Positions 1,846 to 14,992 of a stretch of DNA of 32,386 nt are shown here, in pieces. The notes beneath the pieces were generated by a model. The model was not told where the DNA came from. It did no database searches and saw only the letters and a program-made list of their open reading frames with translations. Numbering within the stretch: the stretch's first letter is position 1; each line of letters opens with the position of its first letter. Origin of the DNA: a virus; IMG/VR virus record IMGVR_UViG_3300042691_033936, positions 1 to 32,386 of that record. The stretch is one strand, 5' to 3'. The position numbers and the translations under genes are program-made.

Positions 1846-2523
1846 TTAATTATATTCCCATTTAAAACCACCGGCGGTTTTTTGGTTTCTTACATTTCTA
1901 CAAACTTCGGAAATATGTCTAATTTGTAAAGACTTTTGTGCTTCAGATATTGAATCCCAAATTTTAATCAAATTACCATTCAAATCAATTTGTTTAACTT
2001 TTTTCTTACTTGTTGACGATTCTGATAATTTTTTACATCTTTTTTCATCAAATTTTTTATTTTTGTTTGGTGATTTTCGTCCTTTAAGTGATTTTGATAG
2101 GTTTTCTCTGTGTTTTTCCGATCTTTCTTTTCCGTTGTTTAACCAAGGTATTGGTTTACCTTTTTTTGTGTTAGACATTTTCAATTTAGATTCTTCGGTA
2201 TGTTTTCTTCCTTTTGTTGATGGTGGTTGATCTCCTCCATTTGTTCCATTTGTTAAATTACATCCTATAAATTTATAATAATTTATGTAAAATTTTTCCC
2301 AATATTGCCACTCTTTTTGTTCTACCGAATCAATTATAAAAATTTCAACCCCATTGTTACTATCTATCAATTTTCTTATCCACCTATCCTTGTAACTATC
2401 ATGTAAAAATCTTTCATTTATATGTCTTTTAAGTCTTCTGTTAATGTCTGTAGTTTTACCAACATACCTAAGTTCGTTAGTGTTTTTTTGAACCAATCCA
2501 TAAATAAAAACTATATCAACCAT
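1846..2523 (-). CDS. GIY-YIG homing endonuclease with NUMOD3 and NUMOD1 domains
   Basis: This 225-residue protein starts with a GIY-YIG nuclease domain (residues about 4 to 95). Visible motifs are IYG at 7-9, YVG at 20-22 followed by KT, catalytic Arg29/30, Glu76 in WEKFYI and a conserved Asn in CNLTNGTNGG. Two NUMOD3-type DNA-binding repeats follow, KGRKHTEESKLKMS (about 104-117) and SEKHRENLSKSLKGR (about 135-149). A NUMOD1-like helix-turn-helix region at about 175-225 begins KQIDLNGNLIKIWDSISEAQ. This is the architecture of phage free-standing (Seg-type) or intron-borne homing endonucleases. Flanking genes look intact, so it is probably free-standing and mobile by cutting sister phage genomes nearby. 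A TATTTAT element sits 4 nt before the ATG. Confidence 0.92.
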   Translation of the reverse strand: MVDIVFIYGLVQKNTNELRYVGKTTDINRRLKRHINERFLHDSYKDRWIRKLIDSNNGVEIFIIDSVEQKEWQYWEKFYINYYKFIGCNLTNGTNGGDQPPSTKGRKHTEESKLKMSNTKKGKPIPWLNNGKERSEKHRENLSKSLKGRKSPNKNKKFDEKRCKKLSESSTSKKKVKQIDLNGNLIKIWDSISEAQKSLQIRHISEVCRNVRNQKTAGGFKWEYN

Positions 2524-2573: not shown

Positions 2574-4784
2574 CTAAAAATCCAATTTAATAGGATACTG
2601 TTGAATACCTTGTCTTTTTTGGGGTGACTGTATCTTAGAAATAACCATAAGTTCTTTATCCACATTGTAAAGAGCAACTTCAGTTACGTAAATTGGTTTA
2701 CTATTATCCCAAGTTGGATTAGATGAATCAAAGAATTGTGTCTGACCTAAATTACATAAGAAATTCATTACATATATTGTTGCTTGAATATCTGTTTCAA
2801 CATTTCCAAAAAAGAAAAATTCATCACCAAAATTCATGGTCAACCCTGTTTGTCCTATTTGTGGTAAATCTATATAATTTTCTAAGTGATAATATGGTGC
2901 ATTGTCATACATATCTTTTGTAATCTGTATAGTTGTCCCTGTCATTCCACTTTGATTTAAATAACCTGAAATTGTTGTTCCACTTATTTGTGCATTTACA
3001 TCAATTTCTCTCCACCTTGATGGGTCAGGTCTAGTCGTTCCTGAAAGAACTTTTTGTGCAATTATTTTTACATCATTGGATGTAAATCCTGATAGTGTTG
3101 TTGTTGAGTCGTTTAAAAAAGGAAATTCATTTCCAAATCTAACTAATAGGTCCGAAGCTCCGGGTAATAAACTTTGGTCATTTCCACTGATTGTTGTGTA
3201 ATAGTTACAATGTAGTGAATTAGTAAAAGCAGTACTGTTAAATCTATATGTAACATATAAAGTTTCTCCATTACCACTTAATAGTCCTACCGTACCACCT
3301 AAAACACCATTAAAGGTATTTGGTGTTATTAAACCTAATTTTGGTGCTGGTAAAGTCCAAGTTCTATTAGTTTTATAATTTAGTGATGCAACAATCTCAT
3401 CATCATCAAATACAATCATCTTCAAATCAGGAAATACTTTACCAACTCTATTTGGTGATCCGTTACTATTAGCATGTGTGTCCCATAAATGATAATATCT
3501 AATTCCAGGATTATTTATGTCCGCGCCTCTTTTTGATTTTATGTAATGTATTTCAAATAAATTTTGTGTTGTAAATCCTGATGGGTCTGTGTAAAATGTT
3601 TCACCAATAACACCATTAGGATTTTTGTGCCACATTAGCCAAGGTAAAGTTAATTTAAAATTTCTTGCTTGTCCTGTGTTTCCTGGATTTGCAGGATCAA
3701 AATCTTGCATTGCAAATTTTTCCCCATAGAAATTATCTATTGATTGGTTTGTATAGTGAAGAACTGCGATTGCTTTTTGATCTACAGGTGGTACTGTTAT
3801 TTTTTCACCAAAAGAATTATAAAAATAGACAGAATCGGTATCTCTTTGTCCGTCGTTACTATTATAACCTAAATACTCTTTTGTTCCGGTGTATCCTGTT
3901 GATTTATAATTATTAAAATCTTGATAGGTATTATTAAATAGTCCAGCCGGTGATTCAGTCCACGGTATATTCATATTCCATATTTTTACATCACTCTGAG
4001 ATAAATCACAGTTTGTTTCAAAATTAAAAACATCTGTTGCCCAATATGGTTGTGGTGTAAAACTATCATATATAACAGTCATACCAGAAGGGTAGAATAG
4101 TACCGATGAAGTACCACTAAAACCTAATGCCGATATATTTGGTAATTGTCTATCAACTTGGATGGTAACTGTTGATGCGGTTGAGGTGTTTCCTGTAACA
4201 TCAACAACTAAATATGTAAATAACTGCCCATTACCAGTAAAAGGACTAATTGATGGTCCTGTATATAATGTTATAAACATACCTGGAGTAACTGTACCTG
4301 AAACGGTAGGGTTAACGGATGTTGCAGATAAAGTTAAAACTGTACCTGAAGTTAAACCCGAATTTTGAACAACAAAGTTTGGATTTATTGTATATGCCGA
4401 AGATGTTATGGCACTATAAGTTATAGGTGAACCTGTGGATCCACTAAAAAAACCTCTTGGTGCTGCCGTGTTATAAACATTATCTATGTATGAATTATCA
4501 AAAGGAATACCAAAAGTACTACCCGATGTAGAATCTAAAAATAGTGGATATTTTACGTGTAATCTGTTTTTTTCAGGTGTTGGTGATAAACTATGTGCGT
4601 TGTATTGTGGCATTAAAACGTTTAAATCAACGGGATCTAAACCACTTACACAATTATAACAAACCTCACTATCCCCTACTTGAAAATATGCAATATCAAA
4701 TTTACCTTGTGATATTTTTTTTCTAGCTGCGTCAGTGAGTAACGTGTTTATTAATGCTGATGTATTTTTAATTATGTAAGACAT
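2574..4784 (-). CDS. Tail fibre/baseplate-attached structural protein (736 aa)
   Basis: The N-terminal 40 residues (NTLLTDAARKKISQGKFDI, then YFQVGDSEV) resemble the start of phage tail-collar/fibre proteins, where a short helix is followed by a conserved G-D. The extreme C-terminus (YVTEVALYNVDKELMVISKI) resembles the 'E-aliphatic-G-L-[YF]-D' strand that normally follows in the same small domain. The 600 or so residues between them, rich in Ser/Thr/Gly and Asn, look like an inserted beta-structured receptor or decoration region. This split-domain reading is inference. The gene is separated by 30 nt from the upstream fibre gene and carries a perfect TATTTATA element 4 nt before its ATG. I see no enzyme motif. 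Confidence 0.75.
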   Translation of the reverse strand: MSYIIKNTSALINTLLTDAARKKISQGKFDIAYFQVGDSEVCYNCVSGLDPVDLNVLMPQYNAHSLSPTPEKNRLHVKYPLFLDSTSGSTFGIPFDNSYIDNVYNTAAPRGFFSGSTGSPITYSAITSSAYTINPNFVVQNSGLTSGTVLTLSATSVNPTVSGTVTPGMFITLYTGPSISPFTGNGQLFTYLVVDVTGNTSTASTVTIQVDRQLPNISALGFSGTSSVLFYPSGMTVIYDSFTPQPYWATDVFNFETNCDLSQSDVKIWNMNIPWTESPAGLFNNTYQDFNNYKSTGYTGTKEYLGYNSNDGQRDTDSVYFYNSFGEKITVPPVDQKAIAVLHYTNQSIDNFYGEKFAMQDFDPANPGNTGQARNFKLTLPWLMWHKNPNGVIGETFYTDPSGFTTQNLFEIHYIKSKRGADINNPGIRYYHLWDTHANSNGSPNRVGKVFPDLKMIVFDDDEIVASLNYKTNRTWTLPAPKLGLITPNTFNGVLGGTVGLLSGNGETLYVTYRFNSTAFTNSLHCNYYTTISGNDQSLLPGASDLLVRFGNEFPFLNDSTTTLSGFTSNDVKIIAQKVLSGTTRPDPSRWREIDVNAQISGTTISGYLNQSGMTGTTIQITKDMYDNAPYYHLENYIDLPQIGQTGLTMNFGDEFFFFGNVETDIQATIYVMNFLCNLGQTQFFDSSNPTWDNSKPIYVTEVALYNVDKELMVISKIQSPQKRQGIQQYPIKLDF

Positions 4785-4788
4785 ATGT

Positions 4789-4796
4789 TATAAATA
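4789..4796 (-). promoter_or_regulatory. TATTTATA element upstream of start codon
   Basis: Perfect TATTTATA on the minus strand, 4 nt before the ATG of the 736-residue tail protein gene. There is no Shine-Dalgarno sequence in the 30-nt spacer. Confidence 0.4.
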
Positions 4797-4814
4797 TGTA
4801 ATTTTATTTTTTAT

Positions 4815-6425
4815 TTAAAGAGCAACTACCAAACCTGTCCTTGAAATTTCAATTGTGTTTGGTGTAGTATTGTTTATTACTGTTTGGCAATTCAATGGTG
4901 TTATAGAAACATTTGTAAGTGTTATTGTATTTTTTATTTTTCCACTGGCAGGACACCTTTTATCAGAAGAAATTGGTGTAAATATTTTCAATATATTTGT
5001 AATATTAACCGTACCCCCATTGGTTATTGTTGCTTGATATGTTTTTGTAAATGCGGTTGTATATGTAAGTCCTCCTTCACAACTAGGTCTTGGTGTTGTT
5101 TGTGTTATTAATCCTGAATTTATTGGTGAAGAAAGTGTTGCGGTACCTGTTGTTGAACCAGATATTGTGTTTTGTAAATTTGAAAGAACACTAACCACTG
5201 TTGATAGTGAGGTTTCTGCGGTTAATGTTGAAGAAACATTTATTGTAAATGATACAGTTGAGTTTGATGGTAAGTTAGGTACTGATATCATCCATTTTTT
5301 TGTAGTGCTAGTAGTGTTAGGAATGATAACATTATTACCTACTTGTATTTGTTGTAAATTTAAATTAAATGTGTTACTTGATGATGTGTTATTTAAAGTT
5401 ATTGGATTAGTTGCTACCGCATTTGTTGAGTCTTTTACGTACACCAAATAATTACCAGCACTTAACCCAAAAAATATGTTCGGTGAATTTTGATATGAAA
5501 ACCCATCTAAAGAATATGAGTAAGGTGGGATACCACTTTGTACATTAATAGTTATAGATCCGTCGTTGGAAGATGCGCAAGAAGGATCATCTTTTAGGAC
5601 ATTAAAGGTTATCGGTGGTGTAACGCAAGTTCCTGATGTTACTGTTATTTGTTGGGAATAAGAACCGCTAACAATCCAACTACCTGCAGGATAATCAACA
5701 GGAAATGGAAAATTAGGTGTACTAGTACCTGTCCATCCACTAACCATCCATCTTGTTTGACCTGTGTTGTAATATATTGTGTATGATGGTGTCACACTTG
5801 TCCAAGTTTGGTACCCATTATATGTGTCTCCACTTGAGAAATCAACTTGTACTAATGATGTTAATATACTAGCGTCATACTGTGCAATATTCATACATAA
5901 ATTCACAGGTAACGGTATTGGTGGGGGTGGTGGTATAATACAATCAACACATTCATCAAATGGTCCGTTCTGTATAATTGCAAAATTGTTGATGTAACTT
6001 TGTGTATTATATAATGTTATACCACTACTTATCCAACAATCATTTTGTGTTGTTAAGTTATATATTTTTCCGGGAATAAAATTTGATGGTAAGTCCGCTA
6101 AATAATAAACTTTAGTATTGTCTTTACAATTTTCAAATTCTTCCAAATAAAAACTATCAAATCCAACGTTACATGTTGTTGTTGCAGTAAAATCACCATA
6201 ATAATCAACAACAGTTGCTGTATAACTTCCAGGACTGACATTTGAAAGAAATGTTCCTTGTTGTCCATTATTCCATGTTACATTATATGGTGGTGTACCT
6301 CCTGTTATGTATAAAGCAATAAAACCATTTGTAGCATCAGGAGTAGACACATTAATACTATCACAATCTAAACCTAAAGGTAAAATTGTTATAATATTAC
6401 AACTATTTCCACTTAATAATCCCAT
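4815..6425 (-). CDS. Tail fibre/adhesin with two SprB-like repeats (536 aa)
   Basis: Residues about 20 to 85 (GLDCDSINVS, ITGGTPPYNVTWNNG, SNVSPGSYTATVVD) form a clear SprB-type immunoglobulin-like repeat, the module that fills Bacteroidota gliding adhesins. A second copy occurs at about 275 to 345 (DDPSCASSNDGSITI, SGIPPYSYSLDG, GLSAGNYLVYVKDS). Between them is a short proline tract (about 163-173, PPPPPIPLP) separating domains. The C-terminal 190 residues are Ser/Thr/Asn-rich beta structure without a recognised family. No signal peptide is present, as expected for a cytoplasmically assembled virion protein. The start codon lies 3 nt after the stop of the 174-residue gene, so the two are coupled. 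The likely role is a distal tail fibre or baseplate decoration that contacts the host surface (inference from context). Confidence 0.8.
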   Translation of the reverse strand: MGLLSGNSCNIITILPLGLDCDSINVSTPDATNGFIALYITGGTPPYNVTWNNGQQGTFLSNVSPGSYTATVVDYYGDFTATTTCNVGFDSFYLEEFENCKDNTKVYYLADLPSNFIPGKIYNLTTQNDCWISSGITLYNTQSYINNFAIIQNGPFDECVDCIIPPPPPIPLPVNLCMNIAQYDASILTSLVQVDFSSGDTYNGYQTWTSVTPSYTIYYNTGQTRWMVSGWTGTSTPNFPFPVDYPAGSWIVSGSYSQQITVTSGTCVTPPITFNVLKDDPSCASSNDGSITINVQSGIPPYSYSLDGFSYQNSPNIFFGLSAGNYLVYVKDSTNAVATNPITLNNTSSSNTFNLNLQQIQVGNNVIIPNTTSTTKKWMISVPNLPSNSTVSFTINVSSTLTAETSLSTVVSVLSNLQNTISGSTTGTATLSSPINSGLITQTTPRPSCEGGLTYTTAFTKTYQATITNGGTVNITNILKIFTPISSDKRCPASGKIKNTITLTNVSITPLNCQTVINNTTPNTIEISRTGLVVAL

Positions 6426-6428
6426 TTA

Positions 6429-6953
6429 TTATCCGAAGTCAACTATATTATAGTAAATTTTTATTTTTAATGATCCATCACCTCCGGTTGGGTCTGAAAC
6501 TGTTGTACTTAATAGTAAGTTAGAATTAACTGTTGTTAAGTTTGATTGTGTGTCCATATTACTTACTAATATTGCATTGTCAGATCCCTCTATATAAAAT
6601 TCTTTAGTTACTCGTTTGTTCGTGTTATCGACAAGGACTATTAGGTTACTAGTATAAGGTGAAGAGTTATAAGTATATTCAAAATAAACTTTAAAATCGT
6701 AGTATTTGTTTGCGCCAGGTGCCGGTAGTATCTCCACAGGTAAAGAAAATAATGTTAATGTTTCGCCGCTAGTTATTGTAACCGCACTATAATATTGGTA
6801 TCCTCCTATTGTTGTTGCAATCTGATTTAATTCCGCCTTATAAGAAGATCCCGCCGGATCTTGAGACACATCATTTGTGTCCACAATATGTATCAACGTT
6901 GTGGGTGTTATTGCCGTTGATTGAGCTAATGTTTGATCTGTTAATTTTGCCAT
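6429..6953 (-). CDS. Small tail/fibre structural protein (174 aa)
   Basis: The N-terminus (LTDQTLAQSTAITPTTLIHI, then VDTNDVSQDPAGSSYKAELNQIA) is a pattern I associate with phage tail-fibre and appendage proteins: a short segment with 'LIHIVDTND-S-PAGSSYK' preceding a beta-rich domain. The remaining 120 residues are beta-structured with many Thr/Asn and end in a Gly-containing strand. It lies 18 nt downstream of a 95-residue paralog gene and 3 nt upstream of the 536-residue SprB-domain gene, within the fibre block. It may be an adaptor or chaperone-like attachment protein for the neighbouring fibre. Function beyond 'virion structural' is not readable. Confidence 0.7.
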   Translation of the reverse strand: MAKLTDQTLAQSTAITPTTLIHIVDTNDVSQDPAGSSYKAELNQIATTIGGYQYYSAVTITSGETLTLFSLPVEILPAPGANKYYDFKVYFEYTYNSSPYTSNLIVLVDNTNKRVTKEFYIEGSDNAILVSNMDTQSNLTTVNSNLLLSTTVSDPTGGDGSLKIKIYYNIVDFG

Positions 6954-6971
6954 TTTTTATTCTTTTATTTT

Positions 6972-7259
6972 TTATTGAAAATTATATTCTGTTCCATCCA
7001 TAAATTCAAAGTAATTACCATCTTGGAACTGTTTTCCATAAGCTGAAAATACTTCACAGTATGTACATCCTGCATTATCCACCAATTTTACTACATATGA
7101 AGTATATGTTTCATATATTGAGGGTAATGTGAAAGTATAAGGGGCGGTTGTTATTGTATCTATCAATTGACACACACCTCCTGAACATATATCACACACA
7201 TAAACATTATAGGGTGTTGAACCTGATGTTATTGAATTTATTGTTATATCTATTGCCAT
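6972..7259 (-). CDS. Single-domain SprB/Ig-like small virion protein, paralog 1 (95 aa)
   Basis: This 95-residue protein is essentially one SprB-like beta sandwich: ITINSITSGSTPYNVYVCD, then CQLIDTI, then VVKLVDNAGCTYCEVF. A short Gly/Asp-rich tail (GNYFEFMDGTEYNF) follows. The same layout is seen in the 146- and 96-residue proteins encoded at 9560-10000 and 10012-10302, so the three are paralogs. Five Cys residues are present; the other two copies also carry several. A perfect TATTTATA element stands 5 nt before the ATG. Likely a small decoration or tip protein of the tail fibres (inference from neighbours). Confidence 0.75.
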   Translation of the reverse strand: MAIDITINSITSGSTPYNVYVCDICSGGVCQLIDTITTAPYTFTLPSIYETYTSYVVKLVDNAGCTYCEVFSAYGKQFQDGNYFEFMDGTEYNFQ

Positions 7260-7264
7260 TTTTT

Positions 7265-7272
7265 TATAAATA
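7265..7272 (-). promoter_or_regulatory. TATTTATA element upstream of start codon
   Basis: Perfect TATTTATA on the minus strand, 5 nt before the ATG of the 95-residue protein gene, inside a 19-nt intergenic gap with no Shine-Dalgarno sequence. Confidence 0.4.
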
Positions 7273-7278
7273 TTTTTT

Positions 7279-8895
7279 TTATGTACAATTTCCGTTTACG
7301 TTACAAAATTCTGTAATTTTACCGGTGTTATCCACCTCATATATTTTAGTATCATACTCAATATAGTCAACATATAATGGAATTGTTAAATTAGTATCTT
7401 CATACACATAAACTCCCGTTTGTATTGTTGTGTCGGCAGAAGAGGTATACCAACTGTACGGTACACCATAATTTGTAAGTTCACATACAGGACAAGAAAG
7501 TGAGTATTCAGCCTTACCTCTCCACTGAATATAACTTAAAGTTACTTCTGGTTTTAATAAACATTCCAAACAAGTAGTATATGTTGTTGCCGTTGTTGTT
7601 GCTGTAAATACGTCTTGATGCGAAACCAAATAACCCGTTGGTGGAATATAATTAACAAAATTTCCAATGTATGTATAACATTCTCCTGATGGTGTTTGTG
7701 AAACACATAAATCAGTGAAGTTTGTTGGTGGATATGCGGTTTGTATAATCATTGAATTATTAGTACATGATGTGAAAACAAAACTTGTTCCTGATGGGTA
7801 AGTAATTGGTGTTGGTGTAATTTCCGTTGCCGATATTGATACCGTAAATGCAGTACAAGGGTCAACTATTGGAACAACACATTGAGAACAACCTCCACTA
7901 TATAATTCAAATATTTGTTTAATAATTCTATTAGGTGAAGTATTTGATAATGAATTGGTGTATGTTACACATTGTATTTGATCTGAGTTAAAGTCATTCA
8001 ATTGAGCTAAGAATGTTGTACCAGTTGTAACTCCAGAACCACTAAATATTAAAGGATCATTAACATAATACTTATCGTTTGTTTCACAATCAACAAGTTC
8101 TTTAACACTTGAACAAACAAAATAACCACTATCTAGAATAAAAGTCACGGTATTTGCCGATGGTGGTCCCAAAGGTGTTGGTGGTGGTGTTGGTGGTGGT
8201 GTAGGTGTTGGTGTGGGTATAGGTATTATTTCTGTAGCACTTATACTAGCCGTAAATGCAGTACACGGGTCCGGTGTTGGTGTAGGGGTCGGTGTAGGGG
8301 TCGGTGTGGGTGGTGGTGTAGGTGTTGGTGTGGGTACGGGTATTTCACATTCAAGTAAAACGTCAAAATCTAAAACACCACAAGGGTCAGGTGTAGGTGT
8401 TGGTGCAGGAACACAACTACCTTCGGTATAAATGGTTGAACTAAAGTCAGGGCAAACCGAATTTGTTGGGGAAGACCCAAAAAAGAATACAGTACCTCCT
8501 AACCCGTCTCCTATACACCACTTATTTGAGTCATAAAAAATATAACCAACGCTTGTTCCTCCGGTCCAATATGGCTTCGCACTATAACTACCCACAATGG
8601 TATATGTTCCATTGTATCCCGTATACGCACTTAATGGAATATCAACACAAACCAATTCGTCGCAACAATAACCACTACAAGGGGGGTCTAAACATCCCAT
8701 AATTGATGTTGCGGTGCCGTCAAATGAAAATGGTCCAAAGGCCGTTACACCAGAAACTATAGTGTAACACCCGTCCATAATATTTGTATCTCCTGTAATT
8801 TCAAACGAAGATAAATAAGTTGTAGAACCAAGCCAAGAAGTAGCACTATATACTATTTGTGTATAACAACAACTACTTAATATAATATCCGCCAT
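7279..8895 (-). CDS. Cys-rich fibre protein with Pro-Thr linkers (538 aa)
   Basis: Several small Cys-containing domains are joined by Pro-Thr repeats. Pro-Thr tracts lie at residues about 162-169, 185-208 and 224-244 (PTPTPTPTP type). They follow repeated short modules DPCGVLDF, DPCTAFTASISATEI and, later near residue 350, DPCTAFTVSISATEI, so there has been internal duplication. The N-terminal 140 residues carry many Cys (SSCCYTQIVYS, CLDPPCSGYCCDELVC). The C-terminal region has more Cys pairs and ends in NGNCT. PT linkers are typical of extended extracellular proteins and would give a flexible stalk. The gene is divergent from the plus-strand glycosyltransferase gene. Probably a tail-fibre or receptor-binding accessory; no enzymatic motif seen. 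Confidence 0.75.
   Translation of the reverse strand: MADIILSSCCYTQIVYSATSWLGSTTYLSSFEITGDTNIMDGCYTIVSGVTAFGPFSFDGTATSIMGCLDPPCSGYCCDELVCVDIPLSAYTGYNGTYTIVGSYSAKPYWTGGTSVGYIFYDSNKWCIGDGLGGTVFFFGSSPTNSVCPDFSSTIYTEGSCVPAPTPTPDPCGVLDFDVLLECEIPVPTPTPTPPPTPTPTPTPTPTPDPCTAFTASISATEIIPIPTPTPTPPPTPPPTPLGPPSANTVTFILDSGYFVCSSVKELVDCETNDKYYVNDPLIFSGSGVTTGTTFLAQLNDFNSDQIQCVTYTNSLSNTSPNRIIKQIFELYSGGCSQCVVPIVDPCTAFTVSISATEITPTPITYPSGTSFVFTSCTNNSMIIQTAYPPTNFTDLCVSQTPSGECYTYIGNFVNYIPPTGYLVSHQDVFTATTTATTYTTCLECLLKPEVTLSYIQWRGKAEYSLSCPVCELTNYGVPYSWYTSSADTTIQTGVYVYEDTNLTIPLYVDYIEYDTKIYEVDNTGKITEFCNVNGNCT
7842..7861 (-). repeat. Internal duplication in 538-aa gene, copy 2
   Basis: This 20-nt stretch matches 8250-8269 with a single mismatch. 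It encodes the DPCTAFT part of the duplicated module DPCTAFTxSISATEI, indicating a recent internal duplication within the gene. Confidence 0.7.
8164..8342 (-). repeat. GGTGTn hexamer tracts encoding Pro-Thr repeats
   Basis: Two tracts (about 8164-8223 and 8272-8342) consist of GGTGTT/GGTGTA/GGTGTG/GGGGTC-type hexamers on the plus strand. They are read as (ACC/ACA CC)n on the coding strand and give alternating Pro and Thr. A shorter tract lies at 8388-8409. The unit is near-perfect at the DNA level, so the length can change by slippage while keeping frame. Several GGG/GGGG runs on the template strand could also fold. Confidence 0.85.
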
Positions 8896-8913
8896 CTAAA
8901 AATTACTTTATTA

Positions 8914-8921
8914 TATAAATA
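8914..8921 (-). promoter_or_regulatory. TATTTATA element upstream of start codon
   Basis: Perfect TATTTATA on the minus strand, 18 nt before the ATG of the 538-residue gene, in the divergent spacer shared with the plus-strand glycosyltransferase gene. Confidence 0.4.
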
Positions 8922-8955
8922 ATTGATTATTCATTTTATTAAACATTTTATTTAT

Positions 8956-8963
8956 TATTTTTG
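8956..8963 (+). promoter_or_regulatory. Possible -7 element for the glycosyltransferase gene
   Basis: TATTTTTG at 8956-8963 is a perfect TAnnTTTG, the Bacteroidota -7 motif, 12 nt before the chosen ATG at 8976. A TTTG at the usual 19-nt spacing is not present (the bases there read ATTT), so the promoter would be weak or differ from consensus. Confidence 0.3.
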
Positions 8964-8975
8964 GTAAATGAATTT

Positions 8976-9563
8976 ATGTTTGATAATCCATTAGAATTAG
9001 ATAGGTCGGGTAAGTGTGTTTTAGTCGGTAATGGTCCTTCCGTTATGTACAGTAAATTGGGTAATAAAATTGACCAATTTGATGAGGTTTTACGTTTTAA
9101 TGAATGTAAAATCAAAGGGTTTGAAGAATATACCGGAACAAAAACAACTATTTGGTCAACTTTTGGTCGTGGTGTTTTACCTAAAGACGAGGAAGTAAGA
9201 CCAAATAAAGTAATATTTACACATGGAGAGTATGGGAAACCCGCTTACACGCCAGATAAATTATGGAGAATACCTTTAACCTATTATAATAATTTAAGGT
9301 CTAAAATTCAAGCCGAATCAAAAAAACCAGACCCTTCTGTTTTGTTACCTTCTAGCGGTATTTTAATTATAAAATGGTTATTAGAAAACGTATATGATCA
9401 TTTACACATCATAGGTTTTGATAGTTTTTCTAAAGACATTAGTAATAAACATCATTATTGGAATGAACAAAAATTTACTAAACCAAAAGAACATGACGAT
9501 GAATGGGAAAAAAACTTTATTCAAAATCTTATAAACGATAAAAAAATTTTTATTCTATCTTAA
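8976..9563 (+). CDS. GT29 (sialyltransferase-family) glycosyltransferase
   Basis: This 195-residue protein carries all the GT29 landmarks. An L-type motif has GKCVLVGNGPS (12-22) and IDQFDEVLRFN (32-42), followed by GTKTTIW. An S-type motif reads LPSSGILIIKWL (124-135), then HIIGFD (144-149). A VS-type motif is H159-x4-E164 within HHYWNE. Family members transfer sugars from CMP-activated donors, classically sialic acid. The enzyme lacks a signal peptide or membrane segment, unlike eukaryotic Golgi members. I prefer ATG 8976 to a TTG 15 nt upstream because the ATG follows a -7-like element. It is the only plus-strand gene here. It is divergent from the 538-residue fibre gene, and its stop overlaps that of a convergent gene, so it looks like an inserted moron. 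It could modify host surface glycans or the phage's own Ser/Thr-rich fibres; donor and acceptor are unknown. Confidence 0.85.
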   Translation: MFDNPLELDRSGKCVLVGNGPSVMYSKLGNKIDQFDEVLRFNECKIKGFEEYTGTKTTIWSTFGRGVLPKDEEVRPNKVIFTHGEYGKPAYTPDKLWRIPLTYYNNLRSKIQAESKKPDPSVLLPSSGILIIKWLLENVYDHLHIIGFDSFSKDISNKHHYWNEQKFTKPKEHDDEWEKNFIQNLINDKKIFILS

Positions 9564-10000
9564 CAAGGGCACAAATTACCTAATTCAGATATTATACCAC
9601 CAAAACTAGATATTACATTTGGTGTGGTTGATGAAGAAAAGAAAAATTCTGTTGGGTAACTAACTGTTGTTGTGATTGTTGAACCGCTAGGACAACAAGG
9701 GTCATATGAAAAACTTATAACACCTGGATGTCCCCATTTCACTTTATATTCACTACAAACACATGTTCCAGTGTATCCTGTTAAACAATTTTGTATTTCA
9801 TCATGAACACATCCATTAGTATCTATAAGTCTTAATAATAGTGTTTCTTCACTAGGAAAATAATTATCACTATCTATTATAACACTTGGAGGGATTGAAC
9901 AATTTCCCGACACAAAAAAACAAGAGGTTCCTCCTGTGTTACAAAGAAAAATATCGTATGGTGATTGACCACTAGTTACTCCTGTTATTTCTATAATCAT
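9560..10000 (-). CDS. SprB/Ig-like small virion protein, paralog 2 (146 aa)
   Basis: Residues 1 to about 75 repeat the fold of the 95- and 96-residue neighbours: IIEITGVTSGQSPYDIFLCN, then SCFFVSG, then LLLRLIDTNGCVHDEIQNC. A further 70 residues are Cys- and Ser/Thr-rich (TCVCSEYKVKWGHPG, SYDPCCPSGS) and end in NLCPC. The ninth-to-last bases before the ATG read TATTTATTATT, identical to the 5' flank of the homing endonuclease gene. Its TAA overlaps the TAA of the convergent glycosyltransferase gene within a shared TTAA. Likely a tail-fibre decoration protein; no enzyme motif is visible. Confidence 0.75.
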   Translation of the reverse strand: MIIEITGVTSGQSPYDIFLCNTGGTSCFFVSGNCSIPPSVIIDSDNYFPSEETLLLRLIDTNGCVHDEIQNCLTGYTGTCVCSEYKVKWGHPGVISFSYDPCCPSGSTITTTVSYPTEFFFSSSTTPNVISSFGGIISELGNLCPC

Positions 10001-10011
10001 AATAATAAATA

Positions 10012-10302
10012 TTAACCAAACACAATACCTTCTCCGTCCTCTGTTGTTAAAATAAATCCGTCTTCAGTAATTATAAAATATGTTTCAACAGCACAATCTA
10101 TTGTCTTAAAAGTAGAACATCCATTACTATCAACTACTTTCACTAAAAAACTAGTTGCGGTTGAATAAAAGGTTGATGCGGTATAAGTACCTCCTGTAGT
10201 ACCCAAATATGAACAGTTATTACCATTTTGATCACATAAAAAAAATGTAAGTGGTGGTACACCTCCAGTAATTCCTGATATGGTAAAAACTTGAGTACTC
10301 AT
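10012..10302 (-). CDS. SprB/Ig-like small virion protein, paralog 3 (96 aa)
   Basis: This 96-residue protein is a single SprB-like domain: TISGITGGVPPLTFFLCDQN, then CSYLGTT, then FLVKVVDSNGCSTFKTIDC. The tail is a short tandem of similar strands (ITEDGFILTTEDGEGIVFG) and resembles the GNYFEFMDGTEYNF tail of the 95-residue paralog. Tails with repeated 'TEDG' strands are common at phage fibre tips, so it may be a tip or capping protein (inference). The start overlaps the stop of the 757-residue gene by 4 nt (ATGA), so translation is coupled to that large structural protein. Confidence 0.75.
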   Translation of the reverse strand: MSTQVFTISGITGGVPPLTFFLCDQNGNNCSYLGTTGGTYTASTFYSTATSFLVKVVDSNGCSTFKTIDCAVETYFIITEDGFILTTEDGEGIVFG

Positions 10303-12572
10303 ATAAAATATGACGGATCGTAAATAGTTGATGAGCTTGTACTACCTATATAACCATATATTAAAATATCCGACCCTGTGGTTCCGCCTGTAAATTGATT
10401 TGCATAAATTTCAAAATCTCTAGCATCTGATGGGTTATTTAATACAATATTATATCTAAAACTATATCTTCGGTTGTAACTCAAATTTAAACCTAAAGAA
10501 GTGTTAGTAAATTTGGGGTAATTAAAATCAAAAGTTTTTGCACTAAATGTCGGCACTAATGTTGGTGTTAATCCTGTGTATATTTGTGTTTCATTTAAAT
10601 AAGACGGGATTTCAATATAACCTTCTTTTGTTGTTGCACTTATTGTTGTTACACCGCTACACGCAATATTAACTTGATAAAAAGGATCTGTGTATTTACT
10701 ACCGGATGTAGTTGTTCCTGTAAAATTATTTGTTGTCGCAGTAGAAGATGGGTTTATTATGTCTATAAAATTTGTTTTAATGCTACCAGAAATATTACAT
10801 AAAGGGTCATAAGTTAACCCATCAGTGATTGTTGGCATTGTTAATTGCATTGTATAATTAGGTCCAGACGTGCCTGTTGTCACAGTACTTGATGGGTGAA
10901 AATAAAACCTTCTTACTGTTGTTCCATCTCCACAATTCGTAGAACCGGTATTTGATGGGATTCCTAAAGCGTAATACCTATAATATCTAATGTCTGTATT
11001 ATCAAAAGGAGTGCCGCTCCATGGTCCTGATGATGTTAGACATAATTGTCCAGATGTAAATGTAGTACTTCCTGTTAAAACTGTTAAATATGAGTTATAG
11101 TATGTGTTAAAATCACTTATATTATTAAATTCTAAATTAACAACCCCTTGAGTTCCCCCACTAACGTATTTAGTATATGTTATTGTGTTTGTTGTGGGTG
11201 TTGCACAAATTAGTGAAACGTTTCTTGTGTTAGTTTGTGTAAACGTTATTGAATTAATTCGTAATGTTCCTGAACTTACATTTATAAATGGATTAATCGG
11301 GCTCGTTAAAACTGAATAGGCATCAATGCTACGATAAGCGGTAGTACTTAGTATGTTTTGATTATTTTCATCAGGTGCAATATATTTAGAAAAATCATCA
11401 GTTTTATTTGTACACCCACTAATTTTGAAAGTAATAATATTAGTATTACACAGGCCGGTTGCTGAATTAATTGTTGATGCTGAAATCTTATATGGTGTAC
11501 CATTTAATAAACACGTATCTTGATCAAAAGTGTTTAAACAAGTGAAGTAAACATCCCAATTTGTTTGTGTGTTTGCAGAATTTGGTATTACTTCTAATTT
11601 TATGGTGTCATTTATGTTTTGTGTAAGACCTGTAAAGCAATTAACTTTTTTTACAAAATATATAGGTGAAAACGTATCCGCACTTTTAGGTAATTTAGAT
11701 AAACTAAAATCACTACTTGTTAGGTTTGACCCAACTTCAATATCTTCAATCACTAGTGGTTCTGTGTAAGCCGAACCATAATACGTAAGTCTTAACCTAT
11801 CAGGTACCGAGTAACCTCTAAATTTCCAAGCAAAATAATTAGTTATACCTGTAAACAAAAATGTACCCTCTAAACTTTGTGGGATAACACCAGCAGCAGC
11901 ACCTGAAAAACTTACTCTATGTTCATAGTTTGCATCATCACTTGACCCATCTCCGTTATCACAAGTAAATGGATTAACAGTGACAGTTGTTGCAGAAAAA
12001 CACTCTAGTTCTGCAGGAATATTTCCTGTTCCACCTGTTTGTGAAAATGTTAGTCCGCTAATTTTTACTTTATCTATTACCGGTACGTATGTTCCTGCTT
12101 GAGCAAATATGGCTGTAGATCCAGTAAGTGGGTGCGTAAAAGAATAAGGTATAAATTCAGAACCAAATCCTGATATATAAACAGGATTTGTAGTATCTCC
12201 CGTTTCATACCAAAAAATTCTATAATCGGTAATATTCGCCTGACAAGATCCTGTAAGATTTCCAGCAACCAATCTACCAATAGTAGACGCACTGTATGAA
12301 TTAAAATCTAAATCACAAGTTACGCAAAAATTATTATCCTGAACAGGAATGTCACAATAACAACCAGTACCGATATCAAAAATTCTAATTTGTGTAGTAC
12401 CATCAGGAACATTATTTATGTAATATGGACATTGATTACCTGTTATTGCGGATAAATTTATGTTAGTTGTAAATGCACTAACAAAACTATCAACATCACT
12501 GTATAGATTAATTATACCACCTAATGGTGTTGTTCCTGTATAAGATAAACATGTTACCGCTGAAAAAGGCAT
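10299..12572 (-). CDS. Large tail/fibre structural protein (757 aa)
   Basis: No family is recognised for this 757-residue, Ser/Thr/Asn/Tyr-rich protein of low charge, which looks all-beta. The first 90 residues contain a Cys cluster (CYCDIPVQDNNFCVTCDLDF) ending a small domain. Later segments repeat the style 'CxTxxTVNPF..CDNGDGSSDDANYEHRV' and 'LNTFDQDTCLLNGTPYKISA'. It lies 8 nt downstream of the SprB-repeat gene and overlaps the small paralog 3 gene by 4 nt, placing it inside the fibre/adhesin block. A long fibre or baseplate-peripheral protein is the simplest reading. There is no signal peptide and no catalytic motif. Confidence 0.75.
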   Translation of the reverse strand: MPFSAVTCLSYTGTTPLGGIINLYSDVDSFVSAFTTNINLSAITGNQCPYYINNVPDGTTQIRIFDIGTGCYCDIPVQDNNFCVTCDLDFNSYSASTIGRLVAGNLTGSCQANITDYRIFWYETGDTTNPVYISGFGSEFIPYSFTHPLTGSTAIFAQAGTYVPVIDKVKISGLTFSQTGGTGNIPAELECFSATTVTVNPFTCDNGDGSSDDANYEHRVSFSGAAAGVIPQSLEGTFLFTGITNYFAWKFRGYSVPDRLRLTYYGSAYTEPLVIEDIEVGSNLTSSDFSLSKLPKSADTFSPIYFVKKVNCFTGLTQNINDTIKLEVIPNSANTQTNWDVYFTCLNTFDQDTCLLNGTPYKISASTINSATGLCNTNIITFKISGCTNKTDDFSKYIAPDENNQNILSTTAYRSIDAYSVLTSPINPFINVSSGTLRINSITFTQTNTRNVSLICATPTTNTITYTKYVSGGTQGVVNLEFNNISDFNTYYNSYLTVLTGSTTFTSGQLCLTSSGPWSGTPFDNTDIRYYRYYALGIPSNTGSTNCGDGTTVRRFYFHPSSTVTTGTSGPNYTMQLTMPTITDGLTYDPLCNISGSIKTNFIDIINPSSTATTNNFTGTTTSGSKYTDPFYQVNIACSGVTTISATTKEGYIEIPSYLNETQIYTGLTPTLVPTFSAKTFDFNYPKFTNTSLGLNLSYNRRYSFRYNIVLNNPSDARDFEIYANQFTGGTTGSDILIYGYIGSTSSSTIYDPSYFI

Positions 12573-12580
12573 ATATTTTA

Positions 12581-14992
12581 TTATGGTTGGTTTATTTCAA
12601 AAGTGTATCCTGACATACCACAACTTATTGGTGGTGGTAATGGTGTTGGGGTAGGTGTTGGTGTTGGGGTAGGTGTTGGGGTAGTTTCACAATTAACGTC
12701 ATACACAATCTCTAAACCTAAACTAAAGGGTGCGTCAGACAAAGGATCATAATCACCATTACAATTAGATTTAATTTGTAATGTATTATTAATTAAATCA
12801 ACAGAATAACTTCCAACATCACTAATACTTGAAAGTATGTTTTCTATAGTAGATTGCCAAAGCGTGTCTTGTGGAACATCATTTAACGTAGTTGCGGTGT
12901 AAAAACTTTGGGTATATGCACTACCATTTATATTTACTTCAGCAGTAAACACTGCCCCGCTAAAGACACATCCGGTGTACCCTGATGTTATGTCCAAATA
13001 ACCTTCATTTAACATATCTGAAAACCCTCTTTGATTACCTGTTGTTGTCACAAAAGTGTTATTACAAAGTGTATAGATGTCATAATAAGTCACTAAATTA
13101 GAATTGCAATTTAAAATAAAGGAGTGGTTTTTAAAACATCCGTTTGAATCACTAACAAGAACACTATATGTACCCGCAGTTAGTCCGGTTACGGTACTAC
13201 CTGTTTGGACGCCAGGTACGTTGTTTGACCAAGAATAACTGATTGGTGGTAACCCATCAAAAATATTAACAGTTGCTGTTCCATCACCTGAACCCGTACA
13301 AGTTGTTGTTGATATTGTGCTTAATAAACTTCCTGATGTACTAATTATCACTTGTTCTGTAACTGAACACCCACTTTGGTCGGTTACTGTAATATTATAA
13401 CTTCCAGCATATAAATTTGTAAAAGTATATGAAGATAAAGTACTATCAATAATTGGTGGTACTCCACTAACTACATAATCTAAAAATCCAGTATAACCAC
13501 TACCTACCTGTATTTCTAATGCCCCATTATTGTAACCACAAGTTGACCCTGTTGTTGTTGCACTTATTGTAAACTTTTGTTGCGATGTAACATTAATTAC
13601 GTTTGAATATACACAATTACTACTAGATGCTGATATAACTAAAAGGTAATTATCATTTGCCAATAGTGGTGAGGTATAACTTAAAAAAGGACCGGTCTCT
13701 ACGTTTACAATACCACTAGTTTGTCCTGATAAATAATAATTATATATGTTATATCCACCTGATAAATTAACTTGTATTTGACCATTATTTTGTGAACAAT
13801 TAGAATTAGTAATTGTTGTATTAACAACATTGAACCCATTAGGTGTGATTAAAAAATCATTCAAAGTAAATTCACAAAAATTAGCATCTCTAACAACTGT
13901 AGTATAATTACCGTTAGTTAATCCTGTAATTATAAAGGTATCCGAAAGTGTGTACCCAATTTGTCCTGTATTTGCCGAATAATAAAATGGTGCAGTACCA
14001 CCAGTTAAAGTGTAGGTGATAGTACCATCAGACATAAAACAAGACGGAGGTAAAGAAGTGACTAACCCTAACCCTATTGGGTCAGCTACCCCTATTGTTT
14101 CATATTTTGTAGTTGAGCAACCTAAATTATCAGTAACAGTACAACTATAAGACCCCTGAGTCAGTCCTGTAATCAACTGAGTAGTTTCTCCATTAGACCA
14201 AAGATATGTAAAAGGTGCGGTACCTGTTACACCTGTTACGGCTAACTTACCTTTGTCAATAACACAGTTAGATGTATTAACTTTCCATAAACCAAAATCA
14301 ACCCCTGTACTAGGTATTACAACACCGTTACCTGTTGTTGCAGTAACATTACCGAAATCAACAAAATTCACATAATAAACACCTGAAGATAAATTAGTAA
14401 ATTGATATGGTTGTGTTGGTGTTGTCACCACGTCATATAAACTTCCGTCTTTATATAATAATAAATTATATGGTGAAGAACTTGTCGTTGCACTCACATA
14501 AAAGGATCCATTATCTAAACCACAAGTTGTACCTGAAACACCATATAAAGAAGCCCTGAAACAACCACTAATTATTACGTTAACGTAAATATCTTCATTT
14601 ACCCCACCAGATGAATCATTAATTCTAAACGTATAAGTGTCTGCACTTAAACCACTAAATGTAAATGGACCTAAACCTGTTTGTGACGGAATACCTCCAG
14701 GTATTTCGTTATTAATAGTATATATAGGGGTACCATTATAGACATCAATAATTGCGGTACCTGAAGAAGAGTAACATGTTCCTGTTACTGAAAATGAATA
14801 ATCTAATGGACCTAAATTACAGTCAATTGAACATGTGCTAGCCGTGTTAGCACTTATACCTACGGTTGTACTTGAGTATGCTGCGTCTATACAAACTGTT
14901 TGTAAAGATGTTGCAAATCCATTTGTTTTTATTCCGCAACAATTTATATACTCATAAAAACCACCAAGCGTTATACCACTAATACAAGCCAT
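12581..14992 (-). CDS. SprB-repeat adhesin-like tail fibre (803 aa, seven repeats)
   Basis: At least seven SprB-type immunoglobulin-like repeats are visible, at residues about 66-140, 145-226, 238-301, 310-382, 388-468, 473-550 and 556-628. The clearest are TAPFTYLWSNGETTQLITGL with TQGSYSCTVTDNLGCSTT, and FDGLPPISYSWSN with LTAGTYSVLVSDSNGC. Hallmarks are C-x-xx-DG/NG starts, 'PPYxYxWSNG' cores, 'GLxxGxYxVxVxDxxGC' ends. These repeats are known from Bacteroidota gliding/adhesin proteins (SprB, PF13573). A C-terminal domain (about 630-770) and a (TP)n tract (about 775-790) follow. No signal peptide or type IX sorting domain is present, so it is a virion protein rather than a secreted adhesin. 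Its start overlaps the stop of the 983-residue baseplate gene by one nt, suggesting attachment to the baseplate. Likely a host-contact fibre. Confidence 0.88.
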   Translation of the reverse strand: MACISGITLGGFYEYINCCGIKTNGFATSLQTVCIDAAYSSTTVGISANTASTCSIDCNLGPLDYSFSVTGTCYSSSGTAIIDVYNGTPIYTINNEIPGGIPSQTGLGPFTFSGLSADTYTFRINDSSGGVNEDIYVNVIISGCFRASLYGVSGTTCGLDNGSFYVSATTSSSPYNLLLYKDGSLYDVVTTPTQPYQFTNLSSGVYYVNFVDFGNVTATTGNGVVIPSTGVDFGLWKVNTSNCVIDKGKLAVTGVTGTAPFTYLWSNGETTQLITGLTQGSYSCTVTDNLGCSTTKYETIGVADPIGLGLVTSLPPSCFMSDGTITYTLTGGTAPFYYSANTGQIGYTLSDTFIITGLTNGNYTTVVRDANFCEFTLNDFLITPNGFNVVNTTITNSNCSQNNGQIQVNLSGGYNIYNYYLSGQTSGIVNVETGPFLSYTSPLLANDNYLLVISASSSNCVYSNVINVTSQQKFTISATTTGSTCGYNNGALEIQVGSGYTGFLDYVVSGVPPIIDSTLSSYTFTNLYAGSYNITVTDQSGCSVTEQVIISTSGSLLSTISTTTCTGSGDGTATVNIFDGLPPISYSWSNNVPGVQTGSTVTGLTAGTYSVLVSDSNGCFKNHSFILNCNSNLVTYYDIYTLCNNTFVTTTGNQRGFSDMLNEGYLDITSGYTGCVFSGAVFTAEVNINGSAYTQSFYTATTLNDVPQDTLWQSTIENILSSISDVGSYSVDLINNTLQIKSNCNGDYDPLSDAPFSLGLEIVYDVNCETTPTPTPTPTPTPTPLPPPISCGMSGYTFEINQP
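12631..12684 (-). repeat. GGTGTn/GGGGTA hexamer tract encoding Thr-Pro repeat
   Basis: Plus-strand hexamers GGTGTT, GGGGTA, GGTGTT repeat and encode the (TP)n tract near the C-terminus of the 803-residue fibre protein. The tract has the same unit as the tracts in the 538-residue gene about 4 kb away, giving potential homology between the two genes. Confidence 0.8.

Follow-up and report, generated by a model that had tools for sequence, protein, structure and literature searches.

Several families of enzymes that attach sugars to Thr-rich proteins, or that belong to family GT29, have been characterized in other organisms. Enzymes of family GT60 transfer alpha-GlcNAc to polypeptides; in T. cruzi, they modify Thr of mucins, and a soluble cytosolic relative starts the Skp1 glycan (PMC9472816, PMC8724618). 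For cytoplasmic Maf enzymes, a direct linkage of Neu5Ac or Kdo to Ser/Thr of flagellin is reported in PMC7591256, which cites Khairnar 2020. Bacterial GT29 proteins have already been described, which contain the GT29 motifs but neither a transmembrane domain nor disulfide cysteines (PMC5811610), and the Arabidopsis GT29 protein MGP2/RCKT1 has been inferred to transfer Kdo from CMP-Kdo (PMC11288761). GT29 in phages is also not new, because GT29-annotated Caudovirales proteins, e.g., A0A6J5NLG3, are present in BFVD. A search of mostly open-access literature retrieved no paper on phage GT29 or on a link between GT29 and fibres.

The DNA analyzed here, in the following called the window, is an IMG/VR virus record of 32,386 bases that contains a T4-like tail module. 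It encodes gp25-like and gp6/J-like baseplate wedge proteins as well as a ribonucleotide reductase. The baseplate matches, at 26–30% identity, were to Flavobacterium phage immuto, a Microcystis phage, and the 484-kb uncultured phage LR756508. A fibre gene at 4815–6425 (minus strand) contains an SprB repeat (PF13573), a feature of Bacteroidota gliding adhesins. Judging from this repeat and the baseplate relatives, the host is probably a Bacteroidota bacterium. A GIY-YIG/NUMOD homing-endonuclease-like gene is located inside the tail module at 1846–2523 (minus strand). All gene calls are mechanical ORFs.

The GT29 gene and its product

The following features of the GT29 gene were recognized:

8976–9563, plus strand: GT29-family glycosyltransferase gene, 195 aa, soluble, without N-terminal membrane anchor (PF00777, AlphaFold2 model, PDB fold match, dN/dS)
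9012–9149, plus strand: L sialylmotif, residues 13–58 (CVLVGNGPS...DEVLRFNE...GTKTT), with N19 and N42 (ST3Gal1 alignment)
9342–9419, plus strand: S sialylmotif, residues 123–148 (LLPSSGIL...IIGF); S126, G128, and F148 are invariant (ST3Gal1 alignment)
9450–9461, plus strand: motif III, H159-H160-Y-W (HHYW); H160 corresponds to H302 of ST3Gal1, H160 and Y161 are invariant
9492–9509, plus strand: VS sialylmotif, H173-D-D-E-W-E178; H173 corresponds to H319 of ST3Gal1 in HDGDFE, H173 and E178 are invariant

The ORF is open and represents a real gene. As the earlier note had stated for about 32 kb, it is the sole convincing plus-strand gene, and the other plus-strand ORFs of at least 80 aa overlap longer minus-strand genes. 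It is flanked by 7279–8895 and 9560–10000, both on the minus strand. Full-length copies with 70–83% identity were found on five contigs, including the window. In all five, GT29 has the same position and is opposite in strand to the neighbouring fibre genes, although the L003 contig ends before the partner fibre. Pairwise dN/dS values within this clade were 0.11–0.23, showing that the gene is under purifying selection. In a more distant relative with 51% identity, located on a 195-kb contig (L016/G007), GT29 is also a lone opposite-strand gene among large tail genes.

Family membership was analyzed at three levels. The PF00777 (GT29) profile matched the window protein in two stretches with 79.7 bits (curated cut-off 23, E 3e-22), and phmmer against the PDB retrieved ST3Gal1 (2e-10), ST6Gal1 (7e-7), and ST6GalNAc2 (1.3e-5). 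The PHROGs and NCBIfam profiles yielded no significant match. The sialylmotifs L, S, III, and VS are all present and in order. Residues were mapped onto porcine ST3Gal1 using the HMMER alignment and chain numbering, which paired N19 with N150 and N42 with N173 (L), S126 with S271 and G128 with G273 (S), H160 with H302 (III), and H173 with H319 (VS). The mapped residues are invariant in four clade sequences and in four GT29s of LR756508 at 20–26% identity, and V17-G18-N19, R40, and N42 of the L motif are invariant across these 8 diverse phage GT29s. H319 is the catalytic base of ST3Gal1, and by alignment H173 is likely to have this role in the phage enzyme. The right order of the L, S, and VS motifs had been noticed before, but VS had been placed at H159-x4-E164. 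That stretch is motif III, because H160 aligns with H302 and H173 with H319, and the VS motif is H173-x4-E178. The S motif of the phage protein reads VYD where animal enzymes have ICD and thus lacks their Cys, while C14 is present; therefore, the phage protein has no L-S disulfide.

At the third level, an AlphaFold2 model was generated from the window sequence together with viral-locus sequences and one MAG locus (pLDDT 85.2, pTM 0.86). It was aligned with the crystal structures of ST3Gal1 (2wnf; Z 16.1, rmsd 2.6, 176 residues), ST6GalNAc2 (6apj; Z 16.1), and the GT42 enzyme Cst-I (Z 11.1). Z scores were 13–16 for GT29 structures versus about 11 for GT42, and 30 of 30 Foldseek matches at E ≤ 0.001 were GT29 sialyltransferases. 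Thus, in the model, the window protein has the GT29 variant of the GT-A fold. Two other assignments were rejected. GT42 (Cst-I/II) had no profile match in Pfam and is clearly more distant in fold, and the opisthokont Golgi sialyltransferases are characterized by a membrane anchor and L-S disulfide cysteines, which are absent from this 195-aa protein that starts at the catalytic domain. In summary, the profile, the motifs, the fold, and the conserved CMP-site residues all support the proposed GT29 membership.

The regulation of the gene was also considered. A T4-like late promoter for GT29 (TATAAATA at 8914–8921) was rejected for two reasons. The window contains 12 copies of the motif where 9.1 are expected, which is no over-representation, and most plus-strand copies are located directly upstream of minus-strand genes, on whose strand the motif reads as TATTTATA. 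For sigma-70-type promoters and terminators around the GT29 gene, nothing above chance was detected. The coding-strand motif TATTTATA/T was found within 40 nt upstream of 9 of the 24 gene starts in the window (0.9 expected by shuffling), i.e., at 2523, 4784, 7259, 8895, 8976 (plus strand), 10000, 18851, 27521, and 30088, which includes GT29 on its own strand. The motif is a possible promoter or translation element.

The exchange slot and the Thr-Pro tracts of the fibre

The region around the GT29 gene contains the following features:

7279–8895, minus strand: slot-partner fibre, 538 aa, proposed acceptor; relatives retain the Thr-Pro (TP) tracts under either glycosyltransferase
8275–8334, minus strand: (Thr-Pro)n tract 1 of the fibre, PTPTPTPPPTPTPTPTPTPT (translation, mixed Pro codons; tracts also in full-length homologues)
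8176–8217, minus strand: (Thr-Pro)n tract 2 of the fibre, PTPTPTPPPTPPPT (translation)
8896–8975, no strand: divergent intergenic region between fibre and GT29, 80 bp, conserved in the clade (alignment of six relatives)
8961–9562, no strand: exchange slot; L049 and L056 have a single GT60-like (PF11397) gene here, in the opposite orientation (DNA identity breakpoints; contents in 24 relatives)
9560–10000, minus strand: small fibre/tail protein, 146 aa, convergent with GT29 with a 4 bp overlap, retained in the GT60 phages L049 and L056

A search with the adjacent fibre retrieved 25 loci, 24 of them with real fibre homologues; the contigs of this group are all metagenomic and mostly incomplete. 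In three of the 24 fibre relatives (L047, L048, L051), a divergent GT29 gene is located about 80 bp from the fibre start. The other 21 contain a PF11397-type gene of 398–415 aa, which is co-directional with the fibre and occupies the slot or belongs to its gene group. It is immediately adjacent in 14 of the 21 cases, whereas in the remaining loci, a GT34-like gene, an HtrL_YibB gene, or ORFs without identity intervene. The slot gene matched the PF11397 profile with an E value of 5e-70. PF11397 and GT29 are unrelated families. The PF11397 and PF00777 matches show homology, and the corresponding activities are predicted.

Comparison of the DNA sequences revealed the borders of the exchange. Identity with L049 (74%) ends at the stop codon of GT29 (9563) and begins again at 8960, which is 16 nt upstream of its start codon, so that the fibre side of the intergenic region, up to 8960, is common to the GT60 phages. 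L056 has the same breakpoints, and identity across both is 68–74%. As these borders deviate from those of the GT29 ORF by no more than 16 nt, the exchanged unit is one gene. The two enzymes were also found to be mutually exclusive. In 17 contigs with a relative of the fibre, PF11397 matches a single gene per contig, but it matches none in the five GT29 contigs or in the 195-kb contig, and PF00777 matches nothing in these 17 contigs, while it does in the GT29 contigs. Thus, co-occurrence was observed in 0 of the 22 contigs of the phage group (17 with PF11397 and 5 with GT29). On the fibre tree, the distribution of GT29 requires two changes, and a single GT29 clade was rejected (AU p 0.0002); recombination between fibre and glycosyltransferase could also have generated this pattern. 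A second putative GT29/GT60 exchange beside a homologous protein (L021/L022 versus L157) is not claimed, because the proteins have no more than a repeat family in common. The description of the gene as a lone moron was not quite right, as GT29 is a stable resident of a slot in which a glycosyltransferase is found almost without exception.

The fibre itself retains its TP tracts across the exchange. Every full-length homologue contains 23–35 TP dipeptides, irrespective of the slot enzyme. The Pro codons of the tracts in the window are CCA (11), CCT (4), CCC (3), and CCG (2), and because all four occur, the tracts are not a pure microsatellite.

The association with TP-rich proteins extends beyond this fibre. 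In seven contigs of 53–214 kb, TP-rich proteins are rare (1–2 each), and the glycosyltransferase is 1–2 genes from one. The chance of this nearness for a random gene is 0.8–5.4% per contig, and these values must not be multiplied, because several contigs share ancestry. The single TP-rich protein of the 195-kb contig is two genes from the single glycosyltransferase, and the distance in the 214-kb contig is one gene. Among 80 further GT60 loci, a TP-rich protein is an immediate neighbour in 47 cases (17.5 expected) and not in the other 33. Of 28 GT29 loci, 17 lack any TP-rich protein, some because the contigs end; in 10 of the 11 others it is within two genes (3.3 expected). By sequence, the TP-rich neighbours of the two enzymes form 26 clusters, showing that this is not one conserved gene pair. 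The association with fibres is not universal, because in the cultured jumbo phages XacN1 and RAS14 no recognized fibre gene adjoins the GT60-like genes, whose neighbours in XacN1 are replication genes. GT60-like PF11397 genes are very common in phage contigs, and those of L119–L198 and others often adjoin TP-rich proteins. As at least 591 phage contigs carry such a gene, the question extends beyond a single phage. Taken together, the locus qualifies as a fibre-linked glycosyltransferase slot, i.e., the gene is within 1–2 genes of a protein with TP/SP tracts and is exchanged between glycosyltransferase families.

Sugar donor, acceptor, and alternative explanations

The earlier note had regarded the protein as sialyltransferase-like. 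However, NeuA and NeuB (PF02348, PF03102) were not detected in the clade contigs (G000–G004), which are fragments, or in the 195-kb contig G007, and hence, a sialic-acid cassette of GT29 with linked NeuA/NeuB was rejected for these phages. Therefore, "sialyltransferase" is used here as a family name only. It is rather unlikely that the protein is a true sialyltransferase, which would transfer sialic acid from phage- or host-made CMP-sialic acid to the virion or the host. The fold and the motifs agree with this explanation, and some distant phage GT29s are accompanied by NeuA and NeuB (L010, LR756508, L039) or by NeuA alone (L011, L038), but the clade and its 195-kb relative are not, and GT29 donors are not fixed, as exemplified by the plant enzyme. 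CMP-Kdo is present in Gram-negative hosts that make LPS. By analogy with the plant enzyme, host CMP-Kdo is the likelier donor. The question concerns the donor, and a true sialyltransferase would be compatible with fibre glycosylation.

The distant phage GT29s are diverse in organization. In region 3943–11975 of the phage contig L010 (IMGVR_UViG_3300035698_015077), NeuA-like and NeuB-like genes come after an array of about seven GT29-like genes; together, they would form a phage-encoded CMP-nonulosonate pathway with many transferases. In L005 (LR756508.1), four GT29-like genes are clustered with a NeuB homologue at 5976–12792, in a large sugar island that also includes ORFs resembling GDP-mannose dehydratase and GDP-fucose synthase. 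The GT29 search of genome contigs yielded one distant match, L011. This contig of a Planctomycetia MAG contains tail genes, and in it a NeuA-like gene overlaps GT29 and is followed by a fibre-like gene (3329–4584); this looks like a prophage cassette. Fusions of GT29 to a SAM-dependent methyltransferase domain (Pfam) occur in L017, L021, L024, L027, L032, and L035. The methyltransferase domain is N-terminal in most of them and C-terminal in L035, and the fusions possibly combine transfer and capping in one protein.

For catalytic activity, donor, acceptor, and benefit, we infer the following. The soluble, bacterial-type, inverting GT29 of this T4-like phage would act in the cytoplasm of the infected cell. 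The host would supply a CMP-activated ulosonic acid, i.e., CMP-Kdo, or a nonulosonate in hosts that produce such a sugar. GT29 would attach the ulosonic acid, directly or onto a primed sugar, to Thr/Ser of the (Thr-Pro)n tracts of the 7279–8895 fibre, and this modification would precede tail assembly. The slot is modular, as related phages have a homologue of GT60-like polypeptide-GlcNAc-transferases at this site, alone or with further glycosyltransferase-like genes, and a gene swap would alter the sugar coat of the same fibre. Possible benefits are shielding of the fibre, protease resistance, and altered adsorption. The transfer of a CMP-ulosonate onto TP tracts is proposed because of the precedents of GT60 and mucins, Maf and flagellin, and RCKT1 and Kdo. 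We assign a probability of about 0.6 to the explanation that a soluble cytoplasmic GT29 modifies the mucin-like TP-tract fibre of its own phage with a host CMP-ulosonate as donor. Thus, the suggested glycosylation of a Ser/Thr-rich fibre has gained genomic support from the TP-rich neighbour, the exchange with GT60, and the genome-wide adjacency, whereas sialic acid as the donor has not. The genomic pattern suggests that these phages modify the fibres they encode with sugars that can be exchanged for one another.

A more specific version can be put forward tentatively, namely, a bacterial counterpart of mucin-type O-glycosylation, in which an exchangeable slot holds either a GT60-like enzyme or a GT29 that links a CMP-ulosonate directly to Thr. 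The mutual exclusion of GT60 and GT29 favours direct action on Thr without showing it. Against a modification of the fibre by GT29, the known enzymes of this family use glycan acceptors and not bare Thr, and no priming glycosyltransferase was recognized in the clade contigs, which are incomplete (19–53 kb). If true, direct linkage would represent a new acceptor class for GT29, and a gene swap would give the same fibre a different coat.

Fibre modules and glycosyltransferases may be co-located for another reason, e.g., modification of the host receptor. GT29 would then modify a host surface glycan (LPS core, capsule, or glycoprotein) to block superinfection, and its adjacency to the fibre would result from the co-evolution of receptor binding and receptor modification. 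It is known that phages can encode alterations of the nonulosonic-acid capsules of their hosts (PMC12053666, PMC6586298), and a soluble cytoplasmic glycosyltransferase could act on LPS or capsule precursors. Nevertheless, the fibre remains 72% identical along its length despite the exchange, with no obvious replacement of the receptor-binding part, TP tracts adjoin GT60 or GT29 in many different proteins, and no lysogeny genes were recognized in the window. We therefore regard host-glycan modification as improbable, though worth keeping in mind. A role in phage DNA hypermodification, with an incidental nearness to the fibre, is very improbable: glycosyltransferases that glycosylate phage DNA exist (Pyle 2024, as cited in PMC12619734), and the GT60-like gene of XacN1 is near DNA polymerase and carbamoyltransferase genes, but no base-modification genes were recognized around the slot in the window, and the strong bias for TP-rich neighbours would be left unexplained. 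That the protein is an inactive passenger, i.e., a degenerate or regulatory GT29 homologue, can be dismissed almost entirely, because, although the acceptor region of the 195-aa protein is reduced compared with the roughly 270-aa animal catalytic domains, the catalytic and CMP-site motif residues are all intact and invariant, and the gene is under strong purifying selection and was kept in five clade contigs and the 51% identical relative.

Comparison with known systems

If fibre glycosylation by GT29 is true, environmental phages use an interchangeable, mucin-type glycosylation of tail fibres with enzyme families that are best known from eukaryotic mucin biosynthesis. It would offer a testable system for changing phage surface sugars without changing the fibre and a source of small soluble glycosyltransferases for Thr-Pro tags, and it would bear on the proposed bacterial origin of GT29.

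The animal enzymes ST3Gal1 and ST6GalNAc2 share the fold (Z 16), the L, S, III, and VS motifs, and the CMP-site residues with the phage GT29, but the phage protein has only 195 aa and lacks the membrane anchor and the S-motif Cys. The bacterial GT29s (PMC5811610) have the same motifs and likewise lack a transmembrane domain and disulfide cysteines; in contrast to them, the window gene is phage-encoded, located beside a fibre, and in a slot that is exchanged with a GT60-like gene. Other phage GT29s (A0A6J5NLG3, LR756508) share the family and the phage location, but occur in arrays with NeuA/NeuB or as methyltransferase fusions, and for them the literature search retrieved no description of a fibre exchange slot. 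The GT60 enzymes (Skp1 Gnt1, T. cruzi OGNT; PF11397), a homologue of which fills the same slot in related phages, modify Thr of eukaryotic mucins (PMC9472816), but they belong to an unrelated family and use UDP-GlcNAc as the donor. Mycobacteriophages carry glycans on their own structural proteins (Freeman 2023, as cited in PMC12619734); as far as described there, capsid and tail tube are modified by other glycosyltransferase families, whereas the TP tracts of a fibre are the proposed target here. Maf and FlmG (PMC7591256) transfer an ulosonic acid to Ser/Thr of a surface protein in the cytoplasm and are mechanistic analogues, but they are bacterial, do not belong to GT29, and have flagellin as the acceptor. 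What is new, compared with all of these systems, is the setting of GT29, that is, a fibre-side slot that is exchanged with a GT60-like gene.
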